Source: Eublepharis macularius
Taxonomy: Eukaryota; Chordata; Lepidosauria; Squamata; Eublepharidae
NCBI RefSeq assembly: GCF_028583425.1
Contig: NC_072797.1
Location: 25,330,001 to 25,394,000 of the forward strand
DNA: 64,000 bases
Direction: 5' to 3'
In this document: positions 1,843 through 64,000 of the stretch, piece by piece
Position numbering within the stretch: position 1 is the stretch's first letter
Layout: the number at the start of each line of letters is the position of its first letter
Made by a program: the position numbers and the translations under genes
Notes under the pieces: model-generated
Seen by the model: only the letters and a program-made list of their open reading frames with translations
Databases searched by the model: none
What the model was told of the DNA's origin: nothing

Positions 1843-1966
1843 AACTGTGCTTATATACCACTCTTCTAAACAGATTTGTGCCCACTCAGAGCAGTAAACA
1901 AAGTCACTTTATTGTTATCCATACAATACAGCTGAAGAGCTGGGGCTGAGAAGAGCAGCTTATCCA
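1843..1966 (-). mobile_element. SINE family C (CORE/MIR-like), truncated
   Basis: Matches the tail and body of the fuller copies at 2928, 10565 and 28155 (tgcttatataccactctt, then cccactcagagc). It stops where the head should follow. The promoter head in these copies lies at the right-hand end, so the element is on the minus strand. Confidence 0.7.
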
Positions 1967-2083
1967 AGGCCACAAAGTATAACAACAACAACAGTGTGAT
2001 GTATTGTTGAAGGCTTTCACGGCCGGAGAAAGATGGTTGTTGTGGGTTTTCCGGGCTGTATTGCCGTGGTCTTGGCATTGTAG

Positions 2084-2126
2084 TTCCTGACGTTTCGCCA
2101 GCAGCTGTGGCTGGCATCTTCAGAGG
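2084..2126 (-). ncRNA. Hammerhead-ribozyme-like motif, P1 terminal repeat (inverted arm)
   Basis: This is the reverse complement of the motif described at 2824-2864, with the same core (CTGAAGA, GCCAGC/GCTGGC stem, GAAA, GTC). It sits in the left, inverted arm of the same Penelope-like copy. Confidence 0.6.
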
Positions 2127-2823
2127 TGCATATGGATTGGTGCTTGATGTGCTAATCTTCTCTGCAGGGCTATTGTCGAGTATAGAGTGTTTTGTTAGCC
2201 TGGTGTTTTTCAGAACTGGAAACCATGCTGTCTAAGACAGTAGAGACCCCCTCACCTCTGCAGGAGTATACCGTATACCCTGCAGCTGTGGACAAGTTTA
2301 CATTGGGACCACAAAGCGTAGCATCCAGACAAGAATAAAAGAACATGAAAGACACTGCAGACTTGGACAACCTGAAAAATCAGCAGTGGCTGAACATAGC
2401 CTAACTCAAACAGGGCACAGTATCTTATTCCAGGACACCAAAATACTGGACAACACTTCCAACTACTTTGTCAGACTGCACAGGGAAGCCATTGAAATTC
2501 ACAAGCATAAGCAAAACTTCAACAGGAAAGAAGAAACCTTAAGAATGAACAGAGCATGGTTTCCAGTTCTGAAAAACACCAGGCTAACAAAACACTCTAT
2601 ACTCGACAATAGCCCTGCAGAGATTAGCACATCAAGCACCAATCCATATGCAAAAGAACCTCCTCAGGATACAGTGAAGCCTCCCGCCATTAGCATTCCA
2701 CACCCTGGGAAACTCTTACAGGATGACTCAGCTCAACCCCACCCCTCCGGAGTAGATACAAATGACCTGCCAACATCTTTTCCACACTGTGACACTGAGA
2801 GATCTCTGTCTTTTGGTGCTAGA

Positions 2824-2864
2824 CCTCTGAAGATGCCAGCCACAGCTGCTGGCGAAACGTCAGG
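2824..2864 (+). ncRNA. Hammerhead-ribozyme-like motif, P1 terminal repeat
   Basis: Seen in order: CCT (2824-2826, stem I 5' side), CTGAAGA (2827-2833, matching CUGANGA), one spacer T, stem II GCCAGC/GCTGGC (2835-2840 with 2848-2853), GAAA (2854-2857), GTC cleavage triplet (2859-2861), AGG (2862-2864, pairing with CCT). Stem III would be only AC/GU with no loop, but ACGT is self-complementary, so two molecules could form it together. Hammerhead motifs are known in the terminal repeats of Penelope-like elements. The single spacer base before stem II departs from the textbook core, so activity is inferred, not shown. Confidence 0.65.
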
Positions 2865-3137
2865 AACTACAATGCCAAGACCACGGCAATACAGCCCGGA
2901 AAACCCACAACAACCAACAACAGTGTGCTTATATACTGCCCTTCTGAACAGATTAGTGTCCACTTAGAGCAATGCACAAAGTCAGTGTATTTATTATCCC
3001 CTTAATACAGCTGGGGCTGAGAGGAGCAGCTTACCCAAGGCCCCCTCCTAAGCTCATCATGGCACTAGAAGGATTCGAACTAACAGAGCGCTGATTGACA
3101 ACCCAACCACTTAACCAGTATGCTACAGCAGCTCGTT

Positions 3138-3908: not shown

Positions 3909-4036
3909 GGCCAAACTACAAGTGACGAATGACACTTGAACGGCAAGTGTATTCCTCCCTGTTCACTTGCCCTCCACTTGCTCTCCACTCAATCCACTTG
4001 CCGGTTCAAGTGTCATTCGTCACTTGTAGCTTGGCC
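3909..4036. mobile_element. Foldback MITE, family F
   Basis: Nearly the whole 128 bp folds back on itself. The ends read ggccaaactacaagtgac and gtcacttgtagcttggcc, and the arms continue for about 45 bp each. A perfect 5-bp duplication, ctgaa, flanks it (3904-3908 and 4037-4041). No coding capacity. Confidence 0.8.
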
Positions 4037-4207: not shown

Positions 4208-4323
4208 GGTGAAGCTACAAGTGACGAATGACACTTGAACGGCAAGTGTATTTCTCCCTGTTCACTTGCGCTCCACTCAATCCACTTGCTGTTCAAGTGT
4301 CATTCGTCACTTATAGCTTGGCC
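4208..4323. mobile_element. Foldback MITE, family F
   Basis: Second copy of the family at 3909, 170 bp away and shorter. The left terminus is slightly eroded (ggtgaagctac). Flanks are ctatg (4203-4207) and ctctg (4324-4328), 4 of 5 identical. Arms share the same cattcgtcactt motif. Confidence 0.75.
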
Positions 4324-14780: not shown

Positions 14781-14993
14781 CAGATCCAGAGGAGTTAGCC
14801 ATGTTAGTCTGTAGTTGCAAAATTGTACAGTCCCGTAGCACTTTTCAAACTAACCAACTTTATTGAGGCATAAGCTTTTGAGAACCACAGCTTTCTTTGT
14901 CAGATGCATCTGATGAAGAGAGCTGTGGTTCTCGAAAGCTTATGCTTCAAGAAAGTTGGTTAGTCTGCAAGGTGCTACTGGACTTTTTACTAT
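14781..14993. mobile_element. Penelope-like terminal-repeat pair (family P2), tail-to-tail
   Basis: The left half (14781-14905) is the approximate reverse complement of the right half (14903-14993). They meet at the hammerhead-like region and share phrases such as aaccaactttatt and its complement. A perfect 11-bp target duplication flanks it. No coding part remains. Further P2 pieces occur at 24167, 32116 and 39118. Confidence 0.82.
14910..14965 (+). ncRNA. Hammerhead-ribozyme-like motif, P2 terminal repeat
   Basis: Seen: CTGATGA (14910-14916), one spacer A, stem II GAGAGC with GTTCTC (14918-14923 and 14928-14933, one G-U pair) closing a TGTG loop, GAAA (14934-14937), then GTC 25 bases later (14963-14965). 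The stem-III segment does not fold convincingly. The P2 fragment at 32 kb keeps CTGACGA, which changes only the variable position. A degenerate relative of the hammerhead is the best reading. Confidence 0.5.
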
Positions 14994-15180
14994 TTTACAA
15001 AGTATGTTATAATTATCCCCATAACAAACACTCTGTGAGGTGGGTGGGGCTGAGAGAGCTCCAGGAAGCTGTGACTGACCCAAGGTCACTCAGCTGGCTT
15101 CAAGTGGAAGAGTGGGGAATGAAACTCGGTTCTCCAGATTAGAGTCCTACCGCTCTTAACCACTCCACCAAGCTGGCTCA

Positions 15181-20892: not shown

Positions 20893-21017
20893 AGGTGGAT
20901 AGTTGTGTTGGTCTGCAGTAGAACAGCAGGTTTTGAGCCCAATGGCAACTCAGAGACCATCAAAATTTCCAGGGTATAAATTTTCGAGAGTCAAAGCTCC
21001 CTTCTTCAGATACCTTC
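20893..21017 (-). mobile_element. Penelope-like terminal repeat, family P3
   Basis: Minus-strand fragment with the same organisation as P1 and P2: a hammerhead-like core followed by a stretch containing tggtctctgag and ending ccaacacaactatccacctg. The primary sequence differs enough from P1 and P2 to be another family. Confidence 0.65.
20955..21009 (-). ncRNA. Hammerhead-ribozyme-like motif, P3 terminal repeat
   Basis: On the minus strand: CTGAAGA (21009-21003), one spacer A, stem II GGGAG with CTCTC (21001-20997 and 20990-20986, one G-U pair), GAAA (20985-20982), and GTC at 20957-20955. The layout is the same as in P1 and P2. Confidence 0.5.
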
Positions 21018-32115: not shown

Positions 32116-32785
32116 AAAGCAGAGGAGTTAGCCGTGTTAGTCTGTAGTAGCAAAATCAAAAAGAGACCAATAGCACCTTTAAGACTAACCAACTTTATTG
32201 TAGCATAAGCTTTCAAGAATCACAGTTCTCTTCGTCAGATGCACGGAGGGCAAGAAGAAACTGGTCAGATATATAGGTGGAGAGGGGAGGGCGGAGTAGA
32301 TGCAAACAGTAGCTTCTGATATGGAGATCAGTTTGCTTCTGTTAAGGAAGTCGGTTACTTCTGATAATGAGATAGCCATTCATAGTCTCTATTCAATCCC
32401 AGCTTGACTGAGTCAAATTTACATATGAATTCCAATTCAGCAGCTTCCCGTTGGATTCTGTTTTTGAAAGGTTTCTGTTGAACTACAGTGACCTTTAAGT
32501 CCTTGATGGAATGTCCTGGTAGATTGAAGTGTTCTCCCACTGGTTTCTGGATGTTGCCATTTTTAATGTCAGATTTGTGTCCATTTATTCTTTTGCGCAG
32601 AGGTTGGCTGGTTTGTCCAATGTACAGAGCAGATGGACATTGTTGTCACATGAGGGCATATATCACATTGGAGGATGAGCAGTTGTAAGAGCCAGAGACA
32701 GTGTAGTTGATGCCATTGGGTCCTGTAATTGTATTTCCTGGGTTTCCAATCACATGGAGAGAACTCCACATGCATATATCTGTAC
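32116..32785 (-). mobile_element. Penelope-like retroelement fragment, family P2, with GIY-YIG region
   Basis: Read on the minus strand, about 32,780 to 32,350 encodes remnants of a GIY-YIG nuclease domain. The signature YIGQT lies near 32620, and GEHFNLPGHSI near 32510-32540. The 3' terminal repeat runs down to 32116 with gagttagccgtgttagtctg at its end. A hammerhead-like core CTGACGA with GAAA lies near 32210-32240. The copy is truncated and broken. Penelope-like elements are reverse transcriptases with this C-terminal nuclease; no reverse-transcriptase part is seen here. Confidence 0.82.
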
Positions 32786-63628: not shown

Positions 63629-63750
63629 ATCCTTATCTCTATTGCACTCATTTTTAAAAAAATTAAATTGCTGTTGACTGCTTGCTAATCTATATATAGC
63701 AATGGTTGTTGTGGGTTTTCCGGGCTGTATTGCCGTGGTCTTGGCATTGT

Positions 63751-63797
63751 AGTTCCTGATGTTTCGCCAGCAGCTGTGGCTGGCATCTTCAGAGGTG
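63751..63797 (-). ncRNA. Hammerhead-ribozyme-like motif, P1 (left arm)
   Basis: Same core as at 2824-2864, but the cleavage triplet reads ATC instead of GTC. Both fit the NUH rule for hammerheads. Confidence 0.55.
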
Positions 63798-63879
63798 TAG
63801 CACCAAAAGACAGAGATCTCTCAGTGTCACGAATACACTGACACTGTGACACTGAGAGATCTCTGTCTTTTGGTGCTAC

Positions 63880-63922
63880 ACCTCTGAAGATGCCAGCCAC
63901 AGCTGCTGGCGAAACGTCAGGA
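63880..63922 (+). ncRNA. Hammerhead-ribozyme-like motif, P1 (right arm)
   Basis: CCT, CTGAAGA, spacer T, GCCAGC/GCTGGC stem, GAAA, C, GTC, AGG: identical in the core to the copy at 2824. Confidence 0.62.
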
Positions 63923-64000
63923 ACTACAATGTCAAGACCACGGCAATACAACCCGGAAAACCCACAACAACCAGCGTTCTCCGGCCGTGAAAGCCTTCGA

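Follow-up and report, generated by a model that had tools for sequence, protein, structure and literature searches.

Breakpoints of the Penelope-like element (PLE) family P1 occur in excess at the phosphodiester at which a hammerhead ribozyme carried by the element is predicted to cut, and at a set of loci the first nucleotide after this site, +1, directly follows the poly(A) of a different RNA, the whole being enclosed by PLE ends and target-site duplications. Judged by its sequence, the P1 motif is a type I minimal hammerhead core with a vestigial stem III, present in many copies, and it sits in the pseudo-LTR of an element with a reverse transcriptase (RT) and a GIY-YIG endonuclease. We consider it probable that P1 is a Penelope/Poseidon-type retrotransposon whose hammerhead-capable pseudo-LTR/ORF junction is cut in the germ line at GUC|A, giving the +1 scars. 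With somewhat less assurance, we favor the wider proposal that PLE hammerheads are cut in the germ line and that RT launches from the new 5' end onto poly(A) RNAs, a ribozyme-driven transcript capture that would insert other RNAs, L1 RNA of almost full length among them, with a PLE end on either side.

The hammerhead motif of P1 and its relatives

In the window, the 64,000-nucleotide stretch of Eublepharis macularius DNA analyzed here, the minimal hammerhead of P1 occupies positions 2824..2864 of the forward strand with the layout CCT-CTGAAGA-T-GCCAGC-CACAGCT-GCTGGC-GAAA-CG-TC^AGG. The predicted cut lies between 2861 (C) and 2862 (A), and 2862 is +1. Motif scans place three further copies at 2086..2126 (reverse strand), within the same insertion but on its inverted left arm, at 63881..63921 (forward strand), in the right arm of a second insertion, and at 63755..63795 (reverse strand), in the left arm of that insertion, where the triplet is AUC. 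The cores span 2123-2089 (-), 2827-2861 (+) and 63884-63918 (+), all with GTC, and 63792-63758 (-), with ATC. Three of the four copies have CUGAAGA, stem II GCCAGC/GCUGGC, GAAA, GUC and stem I CCU/AGG unaltered; all four satisfy the core consensus C3U4G5A6N7G8A9...G12A13A14...A15.1/U16.1 plus an NUH triplet, and all run uninterrupted across the predicted cut. The initial annotation had described the catalytic boxes in order, with a 6-bp stem II, a 3-bp stem I and an ACGT palindrome, in four copies, and both the sequence and our scans bear this out, with three GTC copies and one ATC copy. It was also right that the ATC copy still obeys NUH, but it overlooked that the stem III string there becomes ACAU and loses its self-complementarity. 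Elsewhere in P1 stem III consists of ACGU only and requires a partner; the analysis supports the view that a helix of this length would not hold a monomer together stably, in line with descriptions of the PLE hammerhead class.

A structural scan of the window (stem II of at least 5 bp with 0-1 extra nucleotides, stem I of at least 3 bp, NUH within 40 nt) returned seven sites, the four P1 copies and three from other families; 200 dinucleotide shuffles of the window gave 0.065 sites on average and never more than 1, a comparison in which the copies of one repeat are not independent. The covariance-model search that the annotation had proposed as a check gave no Rfam match in the whole window at the gathering score, nor in region 1900-3100 up to E=10. 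RNAfold prefers a competing helix in P1 over the active fold (-15.0 vs -11.9 kcal/mol), in which CUGA is hidden by pairing with UCAG across the cut, and it disfavors the active fold as monomer and as dimer. This preference is in keeping with the ribozyme of PAc, a Poseidon element of Anolis carolinensis, which showed no activity without protein and cleaves in vitro once PAc protein is added (PMC11167929).

The copy at 2824 belongs to an insertion delimited by self-comparison and alignment at 1999..2916, in which an inverted left arm with a 30-40 nt tail is followed by a truncated, tail-less sense copy. A target-site duplication, CAACAACAGTGTG, was read by eye from the alignment at 1986..1998; its right copy, also read by eye, lies at 2915-2927 and has bases in common with the element end. 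The second insertion (63703..64000, by the same methods) is likewise head-to-head, with a tail-less left arm and a tailed right arm, and is cut off by the window end. The 30-40 nt tail is thus found on one arm only in each of the two insertions, and this combination of one tailed and one tail-less arm fits the two reverse-transcription start sites given for PAc (PMC11167929). More widely, P1 consists of dispersed insertions, often head-to-head and several with target-site duplications, and not of a tandem satellite. On comparing the left arm of the first insertion (2127-2229) with its right arm (2553-2825), we observed that about 170 nt are missing from the left and that the deletion stops just short of the hammerhead.

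At 2236..2600 (+) the same insertion keeps what remains of the C-terminal, GIY-YIG-type endonuclease part of the PLE ORF; this remnant matches Pfam T5orf172 at E 0.021, below the cut-off, and contains the motif VYIGTT. With the RT domain RVT_1 found in the longer sister copy L161 (Pfam, E 6e-13), this upholds the earlier assignment of P1 to the Penelope-like elements; a PDB search with the P1 ORF gave a single weak, unrelated match. A PLE ORF start (MPATAAGETSGTTMPRPRQY..., from translation, 2833..2916, +) overlaps the hammerhead. Its AUG is A9-U-G10.1, and the U of this codon supplies the additional base next to stem II; C3-G8 precede the AUG, and the predicted cut falls 29 nt past the start codon. 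Each arm of the window insertion has an uninterrupted reading frame running from the endonuclease across the hammerhead; since L161 has a TGA stop there, we do not take a continuous ORF through the ribozyme to be a feature of the family. Apart from P1, two repeat copies at 3918-4029 and 4213-4318 have long terminal inverted ends (CTACAAGTGACGAATGACACTTGAAC...) and look MITE-like by eye.

The three other sites of the structural scan represent families P2 and P3. P2 motifs lie at 14910..14941 (+), with stem III AGCU and an extra A, and at 32207..32238 (-), downstream of a GIY-YIG ORF (32358-32639, -; Pfam GIY-YIG E 7.5e-5, above the cut-off). The P3 motif at 20978..21009 (-) has stem III AAUU, stem I GGUAU/AUACC and an extra A, and is of PLE type by eye only. 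Stem II varies from 5 to 7 bp and stem I from 3 to 5 bp among the families, and the core is intact in two of the five P2 copies observed in the window, the other three having lost parts of it. The annotation had called the extra base before stem II unusual; the base is there, but one extra base stands at the same place in all three families (U in P1, A in P2 and A in P3). The start codon alone does not explain it, since the P2 and P3 motifs have A and no AUG there. P2 differs from P1 both in its stems and in its self-complementary stem III (AGCU vs ACGU), and AAUU in the single window copy of P3 is self-complementary as well. That string may be a decayed AGCU (P3 copies elsewhere with AGCU were found by a pattern that itself required AGCU), which weakens the idea of three independent palindromes as covariation and leaves ACGU versus AGCU as the firm difference. 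We made no pair counts on a nine-row MAFFT alignment because its 3' half is out of register. In the region 14815-15000, P2 forms a head-to-head palindrome with arms joined at CAGATGCATCTG, on the 5' side of hammerhead stem I.

As a ribozyme, the P1 motif is of an already known kind. Reviews describe PLE pseudo-LTRs with minimal type I hammerheads that may act as dimers, and those described in 2017 by Lunse, Weinberg and Breaker reportedly have almost no stem III and probably work as dimers; P1 resembles them in its type, its nearly absent stem III and its place in a pseudo-LTR. The Chrysanthemum chlorotic mottle viroid hammerhead, for which De la Pena and Flores are said to have found in 2001 that an extra core U between A9 and stem II speeds cleavage, likewise has one extra nucleotide at this point; it lies in a viroid RNA, whereas P1 is a retrotransposon. 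The annotation had drawn its parallel with newt satellite hammerheads. The newt satellite 2 hammerhead is indeed type I with a weak stem III and works better as a dimer, but it resides in satellite DNA, unlike P1 in its dispersed PLE (PMC6155905), and the PLE hammerheads are the closer relatives.

The closest likeness is to PAc. In that element, as in P1, the hammerhead lies at the pseudo-LTR/ORF junction and the cut falls shortly inside the ORF, 26 nt after the start codon in PAc against 29 in P1; C3 and G8 of PAc precede the start codon and its ORF begins at the start of stem II (PMC11167929). The two elements also agree in an RT start that lies in AC-rich sequence, at 111-118 nt of the ORF, and in an optional tail of 30-40 nt (PMC11167929). 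In prokaryote and virus collections, a loose hammerhead pattern matched 32 viral and at least 119 genome stretches, which we take to be chance because, among the matches listed, ten had a stem II of at least 4 bp and none of these had a stem I longer than 1 bp. A 25-nt piece of the core matched no stretch of the viral collection, and a protein pattern search of the prokaryote and virus collections matched ten stretches, among which tblastn found no relatives.

Breakpoints in excess at the predicted cleavage site

With up to three mismatches allowed, the assembly (2.24 Gb, 72 contigs) contains the P1 core no fewer than 49,281 times, and the reversed core pattern, used as a control over the whole assembly, has no match. 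A 35-mer starting at +11 has at least 52,704 matches, so that large-scale loss of copies at the cut site is not seen; both figures are lower bounds and decay differs between the two sequences, and the comparison therefore does no more than suggest that few P1 copies end at +1. Breakpoints were counted at five positions wherever the four bases before the break were all unlike the element and the next 26 were exact, which gave 31 at -4, 55 at -1, 150 at +1, 42 at +2 and 18 at +5. Part of the -1 and +2 counts is probably made up of partner arms of +1 junctions, such as GTTC|CAGGAAC and CAAT|GGAAC.

Sixty regions taken from the 150 matches at +1 contain 61 junctions. Of these we classed 30 as head-to-head, 15 as poly(A) and 6 as PLE-sense; the remaining 10 form a mixed group, although on inspection by eye two or three of its members belong with the head-to-head or poly(A) junctions, and L247, which contains a filler RNA, was placed under PLE-sense. 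The filler piece is presumably U6 RNA. Two loci, L294 and L296, hold solo insertions that extend from about +1 as far as the RT start and are flanked by duplications (7 and 12 nt); L296 has one extra T ahead of +1. A search for the 3' end of the upstream fragment at -1 returned 71 matches, mostly small duplications and one-base insertions.

Short head-to-head P1 palindromes number 323 loci in the assembly, and junctions were analyzed in 50 of them. Among the 30 junctions without overlap, 14 of the 60 arms end at +1 and 9 at +2, the next highest count being 7, and the ends spread from -11 to +9. The remaining 20 junctions overlap by 1-4 nt (microhomology). The commonest junction of all (7/50) is an overlap on ACGT, the palindrome that would form stem III, and is not a +1 end.

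Most P1 copies pass the site: in a set of 100 exact-anchor copies, 94 continue upstream through the core, and cut RNA thus seems to be a minor template. This agrees with PAc, for which ribozyme mutants left insertion in vitro unaffected (PMC11167929). The set comes from contig C1, 1.3-11.4 Mb, and contains many identical copies; 13 copies with mismatched anchors were left out, six of the 100 were dropped for want of an alignable core, and 31 of the other 94 were dropped for the flank comparison, leaving 63. In these, differences affect 1.4% of sites in the 35-nt core (0.8% when CpG is left out), 2.2% in the upstream flank and 0.6% in the 10 nt after the cut, figures that apply to copies selected for a match at 40 or more of the 45 bases of core plus 10, and to sequence that from the AUG onwards is also coding. 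Within C1:1.98-2.45 Mb, P1 copies with identical junctions (L166, L167, L171-L174) suggest a segmental duplication near the contig start.

Foreign poly(A) joined at +1

Scanning the 30 nt upstream of the +11 anchor for poly(A) gave 83 rows, which by hand count represent 26 loci. Poly(A) abuts P1 in 21 of these, in 20 as A(n)|GGAAC, which places the junction at +1 or, because one A is common to both sides, at +2, and in one at +3. The A-runs at -7..-5 (AAA), +4/+5 (AA) and +10/+11 (AA) have no abutting poly(A) junction, versus the 20 at +1/+2. For P2 and P3 the same test gave 73 rows, or 41 loci by hand count, with no poly(A) abutting the predicted site; one of these loci, C3:37599693, begins at ATGC after a 5-nt filler.

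Seventeen of the 20 loci were read with about 7 kb of upstream sequence. In nine, a duplication of 12-14 nt flanks the whole composite, which is thus a single insertion, and for these nine we reject insertion of an L1 into an existing PLE copy, as the duplication surrounds PLE and foreign sequence together. The other eight comprise six without a duplication word in the stretch read and two, L310 and L316, with only a 9-nt word that we do not trust. At least 1.3 kb of 3' sequence in common with the L1-like locus L308 is present in seven of the nine composites; the composite at L301 has only about 190 nt in common with it, and L307 contains another poly(A) family. An inverted PLE arm or its remnant lies beside the left duplication in eight of the nine, and by eye L311 has an internal sense PLE piece in this position. 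L308 itself opens with the duplication, an inverted PLE arm and a piece of PLE in sense orientation; next come an L1-type element about 6.1 kb long and a poly(A), and PLE sequence starting at +1 then leads to the second copy of the duplication. A domain search found endonuclease and RT domains in ORF2 of L308. The left junctions differ among loci, and the composites therefore look like separate events.

Origin of the +1 ends

Ends exactly at +1 make the hammerhead their simplest source. We propose that P1 RNA would be cut in germ-line cells at the bond joining GUC to A, and that a partner RNA or the PLE protein probably assists, given that stem III is only ACGU. RT would begin either some 55 nt downstream, within the AC-rich stretch, or some 87 nt downstream, where the tail ends, and, on the minority of templates already cut, would run off the new 5' end at +1; it could then jump to the 3' end of another RNA, often a poly(A), or be joined to the opposite arm. 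Most insertions would derive from uncut RNA. Against the cleavage reading we count the failure of P2 and P3 in the poly(A) test, the spread of head-to-head ends together with the commonest junction being an ACGT overlap, the outcome of the search at -1, the uninterrupted site in all four window copies, the loss of core parts in three of five P2 copies, the dispensability of the PAc ribozyme for insertion in vitro and the RNAfold preference for inactive folds. R2 offers a parallel, in that its ribozyme sets the RNA 5' end and its RT jumps templates, as proposed here for P1; its ribozyme, however, has an HDV-like fold and R2 is a site-specific element.

The main rival, which we regard as unlikely, is that +1 is a transcription start, with capped PLE RNAs beginning AGGAAC and RT running off the capped end, the hammerhead being a relic or serving another step; the same scars would be expected. 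Pyrimidine-A dinucleotides are typical of initiators and GTC|A is one, and the lack of poly(A) junctions at the predicted sites of P2 and P3, despite their similar motifs, fits such a start, which would nevertheless have to coincide with the predicted phosphodiester. Capped templates often leave an extra G, and its presence at none of the 20 poly(A)|+1 junctions speaks mildly against this origin. By eye no TATA-like sequence lies in the 35 nt upstream, and 94 of 100 copies extend through the core, both of which also count against it. RNA-seq from Anolis has no reads starting or stopping at the PAc cleavage site (PMC11167929), which counts against both a start and a cut and differs from the breakpoint excess seen in P1 genomic copies.

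RT pausing or microhomology, with no cleavage at all, appears improbable as the source of the scars. The 20 overlapping head-to-head junctions and the A that poly(A) has in common with +1 are as it would predict, but the longer A-runs draw no poly(A) junctions, and a pause at stem II would be expected near -8 and one at stem I near +4. That the motif is kept merely as code for the ORF N-terminus we think very improbable. The sequence is coding from the AUG at 2833, and conservation within one family cannot tell coding from catalysis; however, C3-G8 precede the AUG, the P2 motif at 32238 lies beyond the stop codon of its upstream ORF, the core is constant while the stems differ among families, and coding does not predict breakpoints at +1.

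Returning to germ-line cleavage as the preferred reading, the new part is the genomic breakpoint evidence. A search of the open literature, whose coverage does not extend to the two main PLE hammerhead papers, found neither PLE breakpoints placed at the cleavage site nor PLE-L1 composites with their junction at it. Should the +1 scars be products of cleavage, ribozyme activity in germ cells has left genomes with a record that can be counted, and such a count is feasible in any PLE-bearing genome; the composites would reveal a route by which Penelope elements mobilize other RNAs.

One further regularity was noticed at the loci with foreign RNA. In L301, L304, L307, L308, L313, L282 and L247, the PLE piece in sense orientation frequently stops around +15 to +18 (...ACAATGCC, ...CCAAG), right before the foreign RNA, as if this point were a recurrent jump acceptor or a second initiation site.
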